Of a DNA stretch of 64,000 bases, positions 47,921 to 58,829 are shown piece after piece. Location of the stretch: assembly GCF_000429925.1 (NCBI RefSeq), contig NZ_AUCU01000009.1, positions 124,001 through 188,000 on the forward strand. Reading direction: 5' to 3'. Origin of the DNA: Desulfatirhabdium butyrativorans DSM 18734 (lineage in GTDB: Bacteria; Desulfobacterota; Desulfobacteria; Desulfobacterales; Desulfatirhabdiaceae). A model generated the notes under the pieces. The model had not been told where the DNA came from. It ran no database searches and saw only the letters and a program-made list of their open reading frames with translations. The position numbers and the translations under genes are program-made. Position 1 is the first letter of the stretch; every line of letters begins with the position of its first letter.

Positions 47921-49015
47921 TCAGGTTCTCGGATGATAGCGAAAATAGGCGGCACAGGTGCCTTCACTGGAAACCATGCACGGACCGACGGGATGCATGG
48001 GCGTGCAGGCGGTGCCGAACAATGGGCAGTCCAGCGGGGTTTTGATTCCTTTCAGAACATCTCCGCAGGCGCAGGCCGCAGGTTCCTGGACGTTTCCCGG
48101 ATCGGGCCTAAGGGCTTCTGCAGCATCGTGATTCCGATACGGGCCGCGAAACCCGAGACCACTGGCCGGGATTTGGCCAAGCCCGCGCCAGATGGCGTCC
48201 ACGGGTTCGAAGACTTGCTGCATCAGGGCCTTGGCCTTGGCATTGCCTGCTTCGGTGACTGCCCTCGGGTATGCGTTTTCAAGCGCTGCACGGCCGTCTT
48301 CCATCTGGTCGATCAGCATGGCGATGGCCAGCAGGATATCGGCAGGTTCGAAGCCCGCCACCACACAGGGGATGGCGTGCCGGGAAACGAAGGGCCGGTA
48401 TGCGGCCAGACCCGTGATGACGGATACATGGCCTGGCAGCAGGAACCCGTCAATGCGGGTTTCCGGATCGTTCACCAGCGCTTCGAGGGCTTGCGGTACG
48501 GTCTTGTGAACAGAATACACCAGAAAATTTCGGATATTCCGTTGGTTGGCCACTGCGATCGCCGCCGCTACCGTCGGCGCCGTCGTCTCGAATCCGATGC
48601 CGATGAAAACGACATTGCGATCCGGATTTTCTGCCGCCAGTTCGAGGGCATCCATTGCGGAATAGACGATGCGGATGTCGTGACCTGCCGCCTTTTCCTG
48701 GCGAAGGGAGCCATGACTGCCGGGAACCCGCATCAGATCGCCAAAAGTGGTCAGCATCACGCCCGGCATGGCGGCCAGCGCGATACACGCATCGATGTCT
48801 CGCTGTGCCGTTACACAGACCGGGCATCCGGGGCCGGAAAGCAGCGTGATCGTCTCGGGGAGAAGGGAGCGGATGCCGCTTCGGAAAATCGATACCGTAT
48901 GCGTGCCGCAAACTTCCATGAGACGAACCGGTTTCCGGCTCCTGCGCCGGATTCGCTCGATCAGGGGGGCGACCAGTTGTGGTTCCCGGTATTCTTCTGC
49001 GTGGGTGATGGTCAT
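47921..49015 (-). CDS. hypD: Hydrogenase maturation protein HypD
   Basis: 364 residues. HypD is the [4Fe-4S] scaffold on which Fe(CN)2CO is assembled with HypC. Conserved blocks: MEVCGTHTVSIFRSGIRSLL, LSGPGCPVCVTAQRDID, AMPGVMLTTFGDLMRVPGS, GFETTAPTVAAAIAVA, LLPGHVSVITGL and the C-terminal Cys cluster (ACACGDVLKGIKTPLDCPLF). First gene of the hypDE-apbE-rimO operon; 476 bases, mostly repeats, separate it from hypF. Confidence 0.97.
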   Translation of the reverse strand: MTITHAEEYREPQLVAPLIERIRRRSRKPVRLMEVCGTHTVSIFRSGIRSLLPETITLLSGPGCPVCVTAQRDIDACIALAAMPGVMLTTFGDLMRVPGSHGSLRQEKAAGHDIRIVYSAMDALELAAENPDRNVVFIGIGFETTAPTVAAAIAVANQRNIRNFLVYSVHKTVPQALEALVNDPETRIDGFLLPGHVSVITGLAAYRPFVSRHAIPCVVAGFEPADILLAIAMLIDQMEDGRAALENAYPRAVTEAGNAKAKALMQQVFEPVDAIWRGLGQIPASGLGFRGPYRNHDAAEALRPDPGNVQEPAACACGDVLKGIKTPLDCPLFGTACTPMHPVGPCMVSSEGTCAAYFRYHPRT

Positions 49016-49491
49016 TGGCTCGTGTTTTCTGTCATCAAGAAGGATGATCCTGCGAAAAGAGGTTGTGGGCTATAGTTGATAGGCTATAGGCACTGGGTGA
49101 TGGGTTTCCGGCTGACTTTTATCTTCGGTTTCAGGAAATAGGGAATCGAACAAAGCGAAAAGGCAATAGGGAAGAGGGAAAAGAGGTGGATGGGAACGTT
49201 TTGATTTTGCGGGAGCATGGTTTGCCTTGACATTTTCGCTATCGCTATCGCCATCGTTGTCGTTGTCGCTATCGTTGTCGCTATCGTTGTCGCTATCGTT
49301 GTCGTAGTCGTAATCGTAATCGAAATTCCCTTGGCCTGTCACCCCGACGAAATCCTTCCCCTGACAGGAAAGGGAGCGAATCGGTCATAGCCCCGCTATG
49401 GTAGTGCCTGAACGAAAAACCCCTGTTTGGAGCAGTGCGCCGCCTGCCCTCCGGCTCAGGTTGTACCCATAACGGGTTTTCCGTTCAGGCA
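49016..49491. other. Repeat-filled gap between hypD and hypF
   Basis: About 475 bases with no real gene. It holds the triplet/12-bp tandem repeat (49235-49325), a GTCACCCCGACGAAATCC fragment near 49340 and the TGCCTGAACG inverted-repeat element (49402-49494). A short Asp-rich open frame (DNDSDND) is only the translation of the tandem repeat. Confidence 0.75.
49235..49325. repeat. Triplet-based tandem repeat, copy 1
   Basis: A 90-base tract of CGN-type triplets (CGCTAT, CGTTGT, CGTAAT). The core is three exact 12-bp units CGTTGTCGCTAT at 49261-49296. On the minus strand it reads AATTTCGATTACGATTACGA, then units of CGACAACGATAG, and is related to the tract at 58772-58829. Confidence 0.8.
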
Positions 49492-49494
49492 CTA
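49402..49494. repeat. TGCCTGAACG terminal-inverted-repeat element, copy 3
   Basis: 93-bp element with perfect 13-bp outer inverted repeats (TAGTGCCTGAACG and CGTTCAGGCACTA), extending with some mismatch to AAAAACCCC. The interior differs from copy 1, but shares CCTGCCCTCCGGC-like sequence. The right end overlaps the hypF stop codon TAG (49492-49494, minus strand). Confidence 0.8.
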
Positions 49495-51822
49495 TGGCAG
49501 AACTGGATTCCGGTCACCTTCCAGAAAACGGTAGCCCGCAATGACTGCCTGGCCGAGGGCGATGCCCCCGTCGTTGCAGGGCGCCTCGTGGTGAGTGAAT
49601 ACCTGAAATCCGCTCTCCGACAGACGTTTGGCAAGCTGTACCGAGAGGATCACGTTCTGGAATGCGCCGCCGCTCAGCACCACCCGATCGAGACCCGTTC
49701 GGAGGCGAACCCGCTGGGTGGTTTCGGTGAGCCCCTCCACCAGGGTTCGATGAAATTTCGAAGCGATAGTCTTGATCGGAATTTCCGCCACTATATCCCC
49801 AACGATGGCTTCGATCAAGGGGCGAAACGAAATGAACAGGCAATCGGTTTGCGGGTTTTCCCGGATCGGCATCGGGTAGGGAGGCTCGTCGCAGGCCGGA
49901 TCGGCCGCCATTTCGAGCGCCATGGCCGCCTGACCTTCAAAACGAACCCGGTGGTACAAGCCGAGCAGGGCCGCGACCCCGTCGAAGAGGCGACCCAGAC
50001 TCGAGGTTTTGGGGCAGTTGATGCTCCGCTCGATCATCGTGCGCAGCATGGCTGACCGTTCATCTTTCAGAAACGAAAAGGGCAGCCGCATCACATCCTG
50101 GCCGTAGACGGCATACAGATAGCTTTCGGCCATTCGCCAGGGTTCCCGGACGGCTGCGGCCCCGCCGGGCATGGCGATCGCTTCCAGGGATGCCATCCGC
50201 CGGAATCCGGTATAATCGGCTTCGAGTATTTCACATCCCCAGATCGTACCATCCGGACCCCAGCCCGTCCCGTCACAGGCAATGCCGATGACGCGGCCTT
50301 CGAGCCCGTTTTCGGCCATGCATGCGGCGATGTGGGCATGGTGATGCTGGACGCCGATTTTCTTCAGTGAACCCGGAAGCTCGAGCGCATAGCGGGTGCT
50401 CAGATAATCCGGGTGCAGATCATGCGCCACGACAAGGGGCGCGACATCGAGGATGCGCTGGAGATGATCGATCGAGAACCGGAAGGATTCGTATGTGGCC
50501 AGGTTTTCGAGGTCCCCGATGTGCTGGCTCAGGAATGCCTCGTTTTCCCGCACCAGACAAACGGTGTTCTTGAGCTCTGCGCCGCAGGCCAGCACGGTGG
50601 GCAGGGATCTGGGAATGAAAACCGGTGCCGGGACGTAGCCCCGGGATCTGCGAATGGGCATGCAGGTTGTGCCTGCCCGGAGCAGGACCGAATCGTCCGC
50701 GCGGATGTAAATGGGCCGGTCGTGAACCAGAAAGGCATCGACGATGCCCGCCAGTCGCGCGAATGCCTCTTCGTTTTCATATACGATGGGCTCTTCGCTC
50801 ATGTTGGCGCTTGTCATGACCAGAGCCGCAAATCCTCCGCTCAGGATCAGATAATGCAGGGGTGTATACGGCAGCATGACGCCGATGCGGCGGTTGGCGG
50901 GCGAAACGCTTTCCGCCAGAAAATAGCCTGCCGCTTTTTCGCAGAGCACGATCGGCCGCTGTCTGGAGCGGAGCAGGGCTTCATCTTCCGTTTCGATTCG
51001 GGCAAAACCTCTTGCGGCAGCGATATCGGGGGTCATGACGGCCAGCGGCTTTTCTTCCCGGCGCTTGCGTTTCCGGAGCCGATGTACGGATGCTTCGTTT
51101 GTGGCGTCGCATGCCAGATGAAAGCCCCCAAGACCCTTGATGGCGACGATGGCCCCTGTCTGCAACAGGGCGATGGCTTCGCGAAGCGGATCGGCGCAGG
51201 GAAAAACCGGTTGCCCGTTGGCATCGTGCAGGCAAAGCCTTGGGCCGCATTCCGGGCAGGCGTTCGGCTGGGCATGAAACCGCCGATCCATCGGATCGTC
51301 GTATTCGGCCTGGCAGCGGCCGCACATCTGAAATCCCTTCATCGATGTATGGGGCCGGTCGTATGGAATATCGTCGATGATGGTGTAGCGCGGGCCGCAA
51401 TGGGTGCAGTTGATGAAGGGATAGCGATAGCGCCGGTTTCGGGGATCGAAGAGCTCTTTCAGGCAGGCATCGCAGATGCAGACGTCGGGCGAGATGAGGG
51501 TGTTGCGGCGGAGGCCTTCCCGGCTGGGAACGATCCGGAAGGTTTGGTGACCGGCGCTGGCGGCGGGGGTCTCGGTCAACCGGGTAATGCGGGCAAGCGG
51601 GGGGAGATGGCTGCCGGAAAGCCGGTCGATGAAGGAGCGGATGGCGGCTATGCTTCCTTCGATGTGGATGTGCACCCCGTCCGATGTATTGGAAACCGTG
51701 CCCCTCAGCCCATGAAGCAGCGCCGATTGGTATACGAAAGGCCTGAAGCCGACGCCTTGAACGATACCCTGGATGTCGATATCGGCGGCCTGGTGGGCTT
51801 CGGAGGCATCATCGGGTCTCAT
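49492..51822 (-). CDS. hypF: Carbamoyltransferase HypF
   Basis: 776 residues. HypF turns carbamoyl phosphate into the cyanide source for NiFe hydrogenase. In order: acylphosphatase domain (IQGIVQGVGFRPFVYQSALL), two zinc-finger pairs (CDACLKELF...CTHCGP and CGRCQ...CPECGP), a YrdC-like domain (AIVAIKGLGGFHLACDATNE) and the Kae1-like carbamoyltransferase (VQHHHAHIAACMAENGL, GIACDGTGWGPDG, LSGGAFQN). The C-terminus after YRFLEGD is atypical and its TAG lies in the terminal repeat of the inverted-repeat element, so the last few residues may be repeat-derived. 38 bases downstream of hypC. Confidence 0.96.
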   Translation of the reverse strand: MRPDDASEAHQAADIDIQGIVQGVGFRPFVYQSALLHGLRGTVSNTSDGVHIHIEGSIAAIRSFIDRLSGSHLPPLARITRLTETPAASAGHQTFRIVPSREGLRRNTLISPDVCICDACLKELFDPRNRRYRYPFINCTHCGPRYTIIDDIPYDRPHTSMKGFQMCGRCQAEYDDPMDRRFHAQPNACPECGPRLCLHDANGQPVFPCADPLREAIALLQTGAIVAIKGLGGFHLACDATNEASVHRLRKRKRREEKPLAVMTPDIAAARGFARIETEDEALLRSRQRPIVLCEKAAGYFLAESVSPANRRIGVMLPYTPLHYLILSGGFAALVMTSANMSEEPIVYENEEAFARLAGIVDAFLVHDRPIYIRADDSVLLRAGTTCMPIRRSRGYVPAPVFIPRSLPTVLACGAELKNTVCLVRENEAFLSQHIGDLENLATYESFRFSIDHLQRILDVAPLVVAHDLHPDYLSTRYALELPGSLKKIGVQHHHAHIAACMAENGLEGRVIGIACDGTGWGPDGTIWGCEILEADYTGFRRMASLEAIAMPGGAAAVREPWRMAESYLYAVYGQDVMRLPFSFLKDERSAMLRTMIERSINCPKTSSLGRLFDGVAALLGLYHRVRFEGQAAMALEMAADPACDEPPYPMPIRENPQTDCLFISFRPLIEAIVGDIVAEIPIKTIASKFHRTLVEGLTETTQRVRLRTGLDRVVLSGGAFQNVILSVQLAKRLSESGFQVFTHHEAPCNDGGIALGQAVIAGYRFLEGDRNPVLP

Positions 51823-51859
51823 GGGTGCAGGGCGGGAGTGTTTGCATCGGAAGAAGGTT

Positions 51860-52147
51860 TCAGGACGGCTGCCGATCGGCCATGCGCTGGTTCAGCGTCA
51901 GGCCTGTCTGCTCTTCCGGGTCGGTTTGATCAAGAAGTGAGACGGATTCCCGCAGCACGGCAAGCGATTCCTGAGCGATCTGGGGGTCGATCTTGTGGAT
52001 GGCAAAGCCAGCGTGAACGATGACATAATCGCCGACTGCGGCATCTTCGAGCAGCAGAAGGCTCGCGCTTCGCCGCACACCTTCGACATCGATGGTTGCC
52101 ATCTGATCCTGAATTTCGACGATTTTGGACGGAATGGCCAGACACAT
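51860..52147 (-). CDS. hypC: Hydrogenase assembly chaperone HypC
   Basis: 95 residues. The N-terminus MCLAIPSKIVEI has the essential Cys2, which holds the iron with HypD and also binds the hydrogenase large-subunit precursor. The rest (AVGDYVIVHAGFAIHKIDP) fits the HypC beta-barrel. The final ~20 residues (LTLNQRMADRQPS) are longer than in many HypC. Located 18 bases after the protease gene and 37 before hypF. Start well supported by the conserved MCLA. Confidence 0.97.
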   Translation of the reverse strand: MCLAIPSKIVEIQDQMATIDVEGVRRSASLLLLEDAAVGDYVIVHAGFAIHKIDPQIAQESLAVLRESVSLLDQTDPEEQTGLTLNQRMADRQPS

Positions 52148-52165
52148 GATCGGGTACCTCGCTCC

Positions 52166-52720
52166 TTAATCGGTAATCGTATCATTTTGATCCATACAGC
52201 CAATACAGGATGCATCGGCCCGGATTTCAGCTTCCGACTTGGGCGAGGCCGGGTAGCCCAGCCGTTCGATCTCCGACAGCACAAGTCCCATGACGGGTTC
52301 GATCCGGGCTTCGATTGTGGGCGTGAGCTCTGTACAGAGCGTTTCGATGTCTTCCGGTTCGACGCCGATGACAACGGTTTGCGGGACTTTTTCGATGGCG
52401 GTGCACAAAGTCAGCGCTTCGAGAAAATCCACCTGATGCAGAGAATTTTTGGCCAGGATCCGCTCGGGCAGTTCGTGTTGTTCCAGCCGGTGGATGTCTC
52501 CTGGCTTTCCCTGGTTCCGGATGCAATCGACAACGATCAGCCGATCCGCATTCGCCATGTAGCCCAACAGGTTGACACCCAGGACGCCGCCATCGATCAG
52601 GGACACATTGTCGGGAAATCGGTATTCCCGGCCCAGCCGCTCGACGACGCGAACCCCGAATCCCTCATCCCGATACAGGATGCATCCGATGCCAAGGATC
52701 ATGATGTGCGGAGGGCTCAT
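52166..52720 (-). CDS. NiFe hydrogenase maturation protease
   Basis: 184 residues from MSPPHIMILGIGCILYRDEG. Family motifs: G-x-G-N/C-x2-x-x-DEG (GIGCILYRDEGFGVRV), where Glu/Asp binds nickel, then SLIDGGVLGVNLLGYM and the LIVVDCIRNQ strand with Asp. It removes the C-terminal peptide from a hydrogenase large subunit after nickel insertion. The usual Asn in GxGN is replaced by Cys, a tolerable change. An AGGGAAA site supports the start. The protease is usually dedicated to a hydrogenase encoded nearby, but none is in the window. Confidence 0.92.
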   Translation of the reverse strand: MSPPHIMILGIGCILYRDEGFGVRVVERLGREYRFPDNVSLIDGGVLGVNLLGYMANADRLIVVDCIRNQGKPGDIHRLEQHELPERILAKNSLHQVDFLEALTLCTAIEKVPQTVVIGVEPEDIETLCTELTPTIEARIEPVMGLVLSEIERLGYPASPKSEAEIRADASCIGCMDQNDTITD

Positions 52721-52765
52721 GTGCGAATTTCCCTGCACGTTGAAAGCGGTTTCGGGTTAAGAAAT

Positions 52766-53249: not shown

Positions 53250-53711
53250 ATGACACGGGAAGAACTCATTGTTTCTGCAGGCAGCCTCAAGCAACCCTCC
53301 ATTCATGCCGCATCGGACTATGCCCGCCACCGGGAGACCATGGCCTCGGAAATCAGTCGCATCATGGAGGCAAGAGCCGACGTCGGCTACATGGTCGGCG
53401 GCAACATCGCCATGATGGAAGACAATCATCGCAACCATGCCAGGTTCATGGAATCGCTGTTCTCCCTGTACAGTCCGGAGGTTCTGGTCGATACGATTCT
53501 GTGGGTGTTCCGGGCATACCGCGCCCACGGGTTTCAACTGACATACTGGCCAGCGCAGCTCGATACCTGGGTGGAAGTGCTCAAGACCCATCTTGAAGCC
53601 GAATCGTACGCCGAAATTTATCCGTTTTACCACTGGATGCTCATTCATCAGGCTGCATTTGCGACACTTTCGGAACCGACAAATGCAGGGGGATTGCATT
53701 CGGCAATATAA
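53250..53711 (+). CDS. Small helical protein, first gene of the cobalamin/GGDEF module
   Basis: 153 residues, no signal peptide, predicted all-helical. Notable: a His/Asn-rich helix MEDNHRNHARFMESLFSLYS (near 56), an aromatic stretch LVDTILWVFRAYRAHGFQLT (80-99), and WPAQLDTWVEVLKTHLE. The pattern (helix with paired His, acidic turn, W-x-F-R helix) resembles the N-terminal helical segment that precedes B12-binding domains in some multi-domain sensors, but I do not recognise a named family. AGAAGG precedes the ATG. Eight bases separate it from the GGDEF gene, so it is almost surely co-expressed. A partner or sensor fragment for the two downstream proteins is an inference. Confidence 0.8.
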   Translation: MTREELIVSAGSLKQPSIHAASDYARHRETMASEISRIMEARADVGYMVGGNIAMMEDNHRNHARFMESLFSLYSPEVLVDTILWVFRAYRAHGFQLTYWPAQLDTWVEVLKTHLEAESYAEIYPFYHWMLIHQAAFATLSEPTNAGGLHSAI

Positions 53712-53719
53712 GGCCATCC

Positions 53720-54724
53720 ATGAAGCCTTTCACAACCCGGTTCTCCGATGAGACACTGGAGGGACTGCACCGGTATTGGTCGGCATCCCGTGTGGTCCAC
53801 GTCCTTCTGGTGGATTCCAAGGGGACGATCCTTTCCGCCAATTCCTGTTTTTGCGCCACACTGAAACGGGATCCAGGGGAGTTGATCGGAAGCGCCATCT
53901 GGCGATGGCTGACCGAGCCGGACTGTGCCATGTTTCAGGAGCGGTTGCGCAAGCATGAACCTTTCGACGAAAACGGGTTCTGGCTGAACATTGTGGATGC
54001 CGATCAGGCGCCGCATACCCTCAAGTGCTGGTATCTGCGGCTTGGAGACGATGTCCTGCTGATCGGTGAAATTCCACAGGAGCGTTTGCATGTCCTGCAG
54101 GCAGAACTGATGGCGCTCAACAATCAGCTTGCCGTTGTTTCCCGGGAAAACGTCCGAAAAGGAAAGGAACTGGCCAAAGCGCTCGAAGAACTCAAAAAGG
54201 CTTATCAGAAAATCGCGAATCTGGCATTTCTCGATCCCCTGACGGAAGTGGCCAACCGCCGGAAACTCGAGGAAAGCTTTCAGCTCGAGGTGGAACGGGC
54301 CAGTCGTCTTGGTCTGCCGTTGACTGCCGTTCTCCTGGATATCGACCATTTCAAATCCGTGAATGACGCTCATGGTCATGCGATGGGAGACAGGGTTTTG
54401 CAACGATTGGCCAGGGCTATCGTTTCCGGTGCCAGGCCTTACGATCTTGTGGCACGATATGGTGGGGAAGAGTTTCTCATCTTGATGCCCGGAACGAGCC
54501 TGGAGCAGGGCAGATTGGCGGCGGAGCGGTTTCGTTCGAGTATCGCCTCGATGCGGATCGAAGGATTGCCCCATCTGATTACGGCAAGCTTCGGGGTGGC
54601 AACACTCAAGCCGGGAGAGCCGCCGCATACCCTTTTCGATCGAGCGGACAAGGCTTTGTATTGTGCCAAGGAAGGCGGCCGGAATCGCGTCTGTGTAGAG
54701 CGTATTCCCCAAGGAGACCGGTGA
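53720..54724 (+). CDS. PAS-GGDEF diguanylate cyclase
   Basis: 334 residues, cytoplasmic. An N-terminal PAS domain (residues ~22-118, e.g. VVHVLLVDSKGTILSANSCF) is followed by a coiled coil (~122-166) and a GGDEF domain opening FLDPLTEVANRRKLEESF. The active-site loop is GGEEF (248-252), a functional form. RPYD (239-242), five residues upstream, is the inhibitory I-site RxxD, so product feedback is expected. It converts two GTP to c-di-GMP. Lying between a small helical protein and a cobalamin-binding protein, it may be controlled by them. No membrane helices are seen. Confidence 0.92.
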   Translation: MKPFTTRFSDETLEGLHRYWSASRVVHVLLVDSKGTILSANSCFCATLKRDPGELIGSAIWRWLTEPDCAMFQERLRKHEPFDENGFWLNIVDADQAPHTLKCWYLRLGDDVLLIGEIPQERLHVLQAELMALNNQLAVVSRENVRKGKELAKALEELKKAYQKIANLAFLDPLTEVANRRKLEESFQLEVERASRLGLPLTAVLLDIDHFKSVNDAHGHAMGDRVLQRLARAIVSGARPYDLVARYGGEEFLILMPGTSLEQGRLAAERFRSSIASMRIEGLPHLITASFGVATLKPGEPPHTLFDRADKALYCAKEGGRNRVCVERIPQGDR

Positions 54725-54796
54725 AGGAACCGATGGATGCCGGAGCCAGCGGCCCGTAAAGAACGCCAAAGGATTTTGATCACAACAGGAGGGAGC

Positions 54797-55528
54797 ATGG
54801 ATGCCATTGCCGGGGAAATACCGGACGGGGCGATTCCCGAATTGGCACGACGCGTCAACGATGCACGAAATGCCTATTTGCAGGCACTCCTCGCCGGATC
54901 GCGCAAGCAGGCTTTCCTTGTGATTCAGGAAGCACGGAAAGACGGTCTTTCCATCATGGACATCTATGTTGACGTGTTTCAGGCTGCCATGTACGAAATC
55001 GGCCGTCTCTGGGAAACCAATATCATCACCGTGGCGGATGAACACATGGCAACGGCCATCACCCAATACATCATGTCGCTTCTCTACCAGGAAATGGATA
55101 TTCCGCAGGAGACATCCGGCAGGGCTGTCATTACGGGTGTTCAAGGGGAACTGCACCAGATTGGCCCGAACATGGTGGCCGATGTGCTGGAGGCCGAAGG
55201 CTGGAATGTGCGGTTTCTGGGAACCAACGTTCCGCCAGACGGCATTCTGGAAGCCATTGATGAGCACCATGCCGGGCTCTTCGGCCTGTCGATGACCATG
55301 TTTTTTCACCTGCCCAATGTCATCGAACTGGTTCGGCGGATACGGACGGAACTCCACCATGTTCCTGCCTGCATCCTGCTGGGCGGAGCGGCCTTCCGGA
55401 TGCTTTCCGCCTTGCCCGGGGAACTCGATGGGTGTCATGTCGCCATGGACTTGCGGGATGCGCTTCGGAAAACCCGGTTGACGGATTTCACCCGGGCAGC
55501 CATGTCATCGGGTCAGACATTTTCTTGA
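54797..55528 (+). CDS. Stand-alone cobalamin-binding protein with W-x9-EH photoreceptor signature
   Basis: 243 residues from MDAIAGEIPDG; GGAGGGAG lies just upstream, which decides the start over one 20 codons earlier. The four-helix cap domain (~12-104) contains W72-x9-E82-H83 (LWETNIITVADEH), the signature of light-sensing CarH/LitR-type B12 domains. The Rossmann domain carries the base-off histidine in GELHQIG (H120; E replaces the usual D of DxHxxG) and ILLGGAAFR. There is no DNA-binding domain, unlike CarH, and no methyltransferase partner. It follows the diguanylate cyclase, so it may sense adenosylcobalamin, light or redox state and control that enzyme. Binding and light response are predicted. 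Confidence 0.88.
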   Translation: MDAIAGEIPDGAIPELARRVNDARNAYLQALLAGSRKQAFLVIQEARKDGLSIMDIYVDVFQAAMYEIGRLWETNIITVADEHMATAITQYIMSLLYQEMDIPQETSGRAVITGVQGELHQIGPNMVADVLEAEGWNVRFLGTNVPPDGILEAIDEHHAGLFGLSMTMFFHLPNVIELVRRIRTELHHVPACILLGGAAFRMLSALPGELDGCHVAMDLRDALRKTRLTDFTRAAMSSGQTFS

Positions 55529-55661
55529 TTGCCTGCTGGAATGAAATCCCCTTTTTCGTTGTTGACTTCCGCTGCCAGAATCGGCATGAACACATCGATT
55601 TGTGGTGCATTTGGACGTTTCCCCCGCTTTTCCCATTCTTTCCATCGAAAGGAGATGCTGC

Positions 55662-58771: not shown

Positions 58772-58829
58772 TTCGATTACGATTGCGATTACGACAACGA
58801 CAACGACAACGAAAACGAAAACGAAGCAA
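58772..58829. repeat. Triplet-based tandem repeat, copy 2
   Basis: TTTCGATTACGATTGCGATT, then ACGACAACGACAACGAC, ending with GAAAACGAAAACGAAGC. It matches the minus strand of 49235-49325 in the order ATTTCGATTACGATT, then CGACAACGA units, then a flank GCAAACC. It lies in the gap between hicB and the CYTH gene. Confidence 0.75.

Follow-up and report, generated by a model that had tools for sequence, protein, structure and literature searches.

Three consecutive genes of Desulfatirhabdium butyrativorans DSM 18734, here called A, B and C, probably encode a split photocobilin, in which a globin (A) and a B12-binding protein (C) control a diguanylate cyclase (B) via the PAS domain of the latter. 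The domains of the three products, the full light signature of C, the globin fold of A, natural A–C fusions beside homologues of B, and the conserved linkage of these genes are the observations behind this reading. The trio occupies positions 53250-55528 of the window, by which we mean the whole 64,000-nucleotide stretch of DNA analysed, and all of its features lie on the + strand. Gene A (53250..53711, 153 aa) encodes a stand-alone globin of the photoglobin/phycobiliprotein type, as judged from its fold model, structure matches and fused homologues; gene B (53720..54724, 334 aa) a PAS-GGDEF diguanylate cyclase, recognized by Pfam, AlphaFold and Foldseek; and gene C (54797..55528, 243 aa) a B12-binding protein comprising a helical cap and a Rossmann domain, without a DNA-binding domain, as seen by Pfam and from its PDB relatives. 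The intergenic gaps measure 8 bases between A and B and 72 bases between B and C, and C is preceded by a strong ribosome-binding site, AGGAGG (54787..54792), just as a preliminary description of this DNA had laid out. That description also placed the first two genes under one promoter, for which a consensus scan lends no support: no + strand promoter rises above chance, and a TTGACT-N16-TATAGA stretch 5' of A fails the rule of the scan. Two tRNA-Ser genes lie upstream of the trio on the opposite strand, and the ORF that begins downstream at 55602 reads, by eye from its translation, as an acyl-CoA dehydrogenase.

The photochemical part of this reading centres on gene C, in which Pfam finds only B12 domains (B12-binding_2, 2.5e-17; B12-binding, 1.1e-16), in agreement with the earlier remark that the protein carries no DNA-binding domain. 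Its closest PDB relatives are the photocobilins 8J2X/8J2W (6.9e-18), CtMerR 8JBS (5e-16) and AbDPcob 8J2Y (4.4e-15), with methionine synthase ranking behind the photocobilins and CtMerR, both of which have been demonstrated to be light-responsive (PMC10979010, PMC11796333). Light-responsive cobalamin domains, the SignatureFinder group, share a signature of four elements, GxxW, EH, GxxH and GxxxP, which has been confirmed on selected proteins (PMC11796333), and all four are present in C as GRLW (residues 69-72), EH (82-83), GELH (117-120) and GTNVP (142-146). The stretch G69-R-L-W72-x9-E82-H83 (55001..55045) corresponds to the adenosyl-binding part of the published signature; from sequence and conservation, GELH (55145..55156) would supply His120 as the expected lower cobalt ligand, and GTNVP (55220..55234) represents the GxxxP element. 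The preliminary description had picked out W72-x9-E82-H83 together with GELHQIG (117-123) and taken W-x9-EH as the mark of a light sensor. Both motifs are indeed there, and W-x9-EH occurs in none of eight decoys, which are corrinoid-methyltransferase-like proteins from related genomes. Across 73 aligned sequences, namely the window's C and 72 homologues adjoining an A gene, there is no variation at G69, W72, E82, H83, E118, H120 or G142, and the first Gly of GxxH is often not conserved. The residue after W72 is Glu (E73 in C) in 71 of the 73, so we do not expect CarH's bis-His light state. On these sequence comparisons, we regard W-x9-EH in C as more than a chance occurrence.

The presumptive output of the trio is gene B, which has both attributes of a diguanylate cyclase, a GGDEF domain (54224..54688; Pfam E = 2.5e-44) and a GG[D/E]EF site, here GGEEF (residues 248-252; 54461-54475), along with an I-site, RPYD (residues 239-242; 54434-54445). 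Its PAS domain (residues 27-117; 53798..54070), followed by one long helix (residues 120-169), is only weakly matched in Pfam, where PF13426 scores 22.8 bits and the cut-off is 27, but stands out clearly in structure prediction: AlphaFold models the N-terminal 170 residues as a PAS with a long exit helix at a pLDDT of 90.7, and Foldseek returns PAS matches at E 6e-8. The earlier assignment of a PAS-GGDEF neighbour with intact GGEEF and I-site is thereby borne out. A PAS of the B type, marked by an invariant Asn and a helix resembling LNxExNNLQREL, also begins many histidine kinases that adjoin A and C; at six loci it makes up a whole protein of some 200 aa next to A and C, with neither a kinase nor a GGDEF domain.

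Gene A, which the preliminary description left uninterpreted, thereby missing the globin half of a photocobilin-type sensor, belongs to a family recognized by no Pfam or NCBIfam model, its relatives giving only scattered weak matches. The sequence of A has no match in the PDB, and its own profile has no significant sequence match to phycobiliproteins. Its AlphaFold model, built from 67 sequences, is an all-helical globin with a mean pLDDT of 94.8, the type of fold that phycobiliproteins and photoglobins share and that photocobilins contain. Foldseek searches with this model ranked allophycocyanin chains first, with a probability of 1.00 but an E of 0.06, while VIA-align placed the globin domain of DosC on top (Z 14.2, rmsd 2.5, 133 aligned), then smURFP (Z 13.6), several allophycocyanins (about 12-13) and the SasPcob globin (8j2x; 11.5). 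As heme globins score about as high as phycobiliproteins and SasPcob in this helical fold, these Z values alone do not settle the globin subfamily, which rests on context. The A profile aligns with that of phycobilisome-type globins fused to B12 domains (hhalign 90%, E 1.5e-6), and a mixed profile, A4, reaches allophycocyanin at 3.5e-4, a partly circular result given that A4 contains four phycobilisome-type relatives. A is linked to the phycobiliproteins by its fold, by where it is fused, and by a profile into which fused relatives had been built. No relative of A was confirmed in viral contigs, and neither A nor C has a PHROG match.

What A might hold can be considered residue by residue. In SasPcob, Asp270 holds the bilin pyrroles and Trp296 touches the corrin ring as well as ring D of the bilin (PMC10979010). 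By profile alignment to allophycocyanin, M56-E57-D58-N59 of A (53415..53426) takes the place of the bilin-holding CxRD/CxQD motif, and W85 (53502..53504) falls, by alignment and conservation, at the position of Trp296. The 26 residues between N59 and W85 equal the Asp270–Trp296 spacing in the printed PDB alignment, and both residues are invariant in 67/67 A homologues. The bilin-holding Asp is thus replaced by Asn59, as read from an alignment rather than from superposed coordinates; in AbPcob the same position is already His (PMC10979010). No His is invariant among the 67 homologues (H60 in 55/67, H63 in 54/67, H93 in 44/67), which leaves A with no conserved proximal ligand and speaks against heme. 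Neither a canonical heme oxygenase nor a bilin reductase was found in this genome, whose completeness of 97.3% means that absences could be missed genes. HugZ gave nothing above cut-off here or in 14 control genomes, a search that thus had no positive control, and the best match to HutW/ChuW, of anaerobic heme breakdown, scored 186.5 bits where 400 is the cut-off, with a model that also matches all 14 controls and so decides nothing. Heme oxygenase was detected in 2 of 37 module-bearing genomes versus 1 of 52 relatives without A, so heme oxygenase does not accompany the module; the enzyme is rare in genomes with and without the module, and we claim no depletion. Given that Asn replaces the bilin-holding Asp and that heme oxygenase, bilin reductase and HugZ were not found, a second chromophore may be missing from A.

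A CobA/BtuR adenosyltransferase, which makes adenosylcobalamin (AdoCbl), is encoded in the genome, where no PduO-type adenosyltransferase was found, and the organism presumably makes its own AdoCbl, to judge from its gene content. The genome also carries dsrA, well above cut-off, as expected of the sulfate reducer that the preliminary description had taken the host to be. A second trio resides on a separate contig of the same genome (contig C56, locus L051, 1-4207). Its C2 (237 aa) is 69% identical to C and keeps the light signature, its B2 (340 aa) is 61% identical to B and has GGEEF, and its A2 has a reading frame broken near residue 54, which, on a 4.2-kb contig, may be decay or a contig error.

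Conserved linkage in other Desulfobacterota, proposed earlier as a check, was found, and it includes A–C fusions. At seven loci, in six genomes of other Desulfobacterota, homologues of A and C are fused in one protein that is followed directly by a PAS-GGDEF homologue of B. An A match is present in 13 of 395 genomes sampled from the phylum, the window's genome included. On a wider scale, an alignment-based search of 84,980 species genomes with A returned 152 relatives. We analysed the best 80; as all 80 loci were chosen for having A, the linkage figures that follow are conditional on A. Among these best 80 of 152, Bacteroidota are the commonest lineage, followed by delta-proteobacterial genomes, Planctomycetes, SAR324, Spirochaetes, Riflebacteria and others. 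A C-type gene lies within 2.5 kb of A at 76 of the 80 loci, with all three pieces tested present in 71 of those 76, and at two of the four loci without C, A or its neighbour sits at a contig end. A B-type PAS is detectable at 59/80; it is in frame with a histidine kinase at 53 loci and with GGDEF at two, one in Competibacteraceae and the other in Desulfobulbus alkaliphilus DSM 24258. The distances and trees of A and C agree (r 0.615, against a maximum of 0.139 in shuffles), an agreement to which shared genome ancestry also contributes. The conserved partner of A–C is thus a PAS domain with an exchangeable output, mostly a histidine kinase, which makes c-di-GMP one output among several. The earlier idea of a split cobalamin sensor controlling c-di-GMP accordingly survives in part: a light-type cobalamin protein does lie beside a PAS-GGDEF protein in a genome with an AdoCbl-making enzyme, while the globin was overlooked and c-di-GMP is too narrow an output.

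Fusions to globins that Pfam does recognize also occur. At L062, L064 and L065, the domain joined to the C homologue matches Pfam Phycobilisome above cut-off. Together with L067, these loci encode an N-terminal globin followed by a fused B12 domain with the light signature, three of the four globins passing Pfam Phycobilisome. The L064 and L065 globins retain SxRD including its Asp, and a histidine kinase gene adjoins L062 and L064.

How might the three proteins work together? We infer AdoCbl binding by C, its light response, contact among A, C and B, and the direction in which cyclase activity changes, and the steps could run as follows. In the dark, C would bind adenosylcobalamin with His120 below the cobalt and W72, E82 and H83 around the adenosyl group, and globin A would sit on C above the corrin edge, like the fused globin domain in solved photocobilins, where it would either hold a linear tetrapyrrole or only relay the change. 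Green light, or less specifically the loss of the adenosyl group, would break the Co–C bond, and this in turn would loosen a C dimer or the A–C contact. The A–C complex, contacting the PAS and long signalling helix of B, would then alter the geometry of the GGDEF dimer, such that c-di-GMP synthesis tracks light. The PAS of B might, on the other hand, have a stimulus of its own.

That photocobilins can control a cyclase, also in trans, is known already, and the trio's kind is known with it: in AbDPcob (Acidimicrobiaceae, PDB 8J2Y), which joins a B12 photoreceptor and a diguanylate cyclase in a single chain, illumination raises cyclase turnover more than 10-fold, and photocobilins act on this cyclase in trans (PMC10979010). 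The word "undescribed" in the preliminary description was therefore too strong. AbDPcob shares with the trio a light-signature B12 photosensory domain, a globin and a GGDEF output; it is, however, one fused protein as opposed to three with a PAS-bearing cyclase, and it has His at the bilin-holding Asp position where A has Asn. SasPcob (Saccharothrix syringae, 8J2W/8J2X, PMC10979010) is the closest solved relative of C (7e-18), with a globin that matches A (Z 11.5) and the conserved Trp (W296/W85), but it is fused with the B12 part first and the globin second, and its biliverdin is held by Asp270, which corresponds to Asn59 in A. A and C are separate genes in the window and fused in relatives, and we liken the probable workings of the trio to those of the photocobilins (PMC10979010) without classing it as a member. 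Photoglobin-B12 proteins and BBAG-2 globins, a non-heme bilin-binding lineage (PMC10151467), similarly have a globin gene adjoining a B12-binding protein gene. For BBAG-2, an RGMC motif and an association with genes for heme oxygenase and bilin reductase have been reported (PMC10151467), whereas the A family has MxDN and genomes mostly without detectable heme oxygenase. CarH, finally, shares with C the W-x9-EH and lower His of an AdoCbl light sensor, yet it possesses an N-terminal DNA-binding domain of its own, which C lacks, and a His after the Trp for its bis-His light state, where C has E73.

Light is not the only conceivable stimulus. The module could sense AdoCbl supply or redox state, with B activity differing according to whether C carries AdoCbl or is empty or loaded with hydroxocobalamin, and any light response a side effect. 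For a sulfate reducer with dsrA, light is no obvious cue, AdoCbl is presumably made by the host, AdoCbl binding alone lowers the cyclase activity of AbDPcob relative to the apo protein (PMC10979010), and the CarH response includes redox chemistry (PMC10442372). Against this, W72, E82, H83 and H120, all invariant in the 73 C sequences, are the residues of demonstrated light-responsive proteins, and the module is spread over organisms of many lineages; we consider a supply or redox sensor unlikely.

There are two further explanations, both of which we find hard to credit. Were A a heme globin, the operon would be a DosC-like oxygen or NO sensor with C as a second input, a proposal encouraged by the DosC cyclase globin domain as A's top VIA-align match and by one A relative that matches Pfam Globin at 1e-4. 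Heme globins conserve a proximal histidine, and no His is invariant among the 67 A homologues; moreover, A almost always has a B12 protein as its module partner, and elsewhere the two are fused. On the missing invariant His, we disfavour a heme globin identity and hold it to be very improbable. Least credible is that C serves as the corrinoid protein of a methyltransferase system with B adjacent by chance. NCBIfam TIGR02370 (methyltransferase cognate corrinoid protein) does match C at 2e-19, but at 69.7 bits, far under its cut-off of 215.3. C carries the light signature, of which W-x9-EH is missing from the decoy corrinoid proteins, it is linked to A and PAS effectors, and no methyltransferase gene is seen among the trio's neighbours in the window's ORF list, a linkage that had been named earlier as one that would speak against the split sensor. 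We rejected this identity on the sub-cut-off TIGR02370 score and the decoys.

What distinguishes the split photocobilin proposed here is that its parts are separate proteins and its receiver a PAS, that the globin carries Asn, and that heme oxygenase goes undetected. No description of the PAS trio was found in the literature searched, a search that lay outside most subscription journals. A bolder and rather doubtful idea is that the A–C pair forms a separate photoreceptor class in mostly heme-oxygenase-less bacteria, its Asn-globin either binding a tetrapyrrole that does not come from heme oxygenase or acting as a pigment-free relay, such that B12 photochemistry would be passed via a dedicated PAS partner to histidine kinases or cyclases. 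Should the main reading be true, a bacterium with sulfate-reduction genes couples B12 photochemistry to c-di-GMP via separate proteins, and sensor, globin and output could be separately studied and exchanged. With no Pfam or NCBIfam model for the A family and A–C linkage across several phyla, many unnamed genes could gain a testable role, and the question arises of what a phycobiliprotein-like globin does where heme oxygenase is not found.

Elsewhere in the window, translations on the - strand at 47921-52738 read by eye as HypD, HypF, HypC and a maturation protease, pointing to hydrogenase maturation, and short tandem repeats whose related units are 6 bases long occur at 49236-49322 (TCGCTA/TCGTTG) and 58791-58824 (ACGACA).
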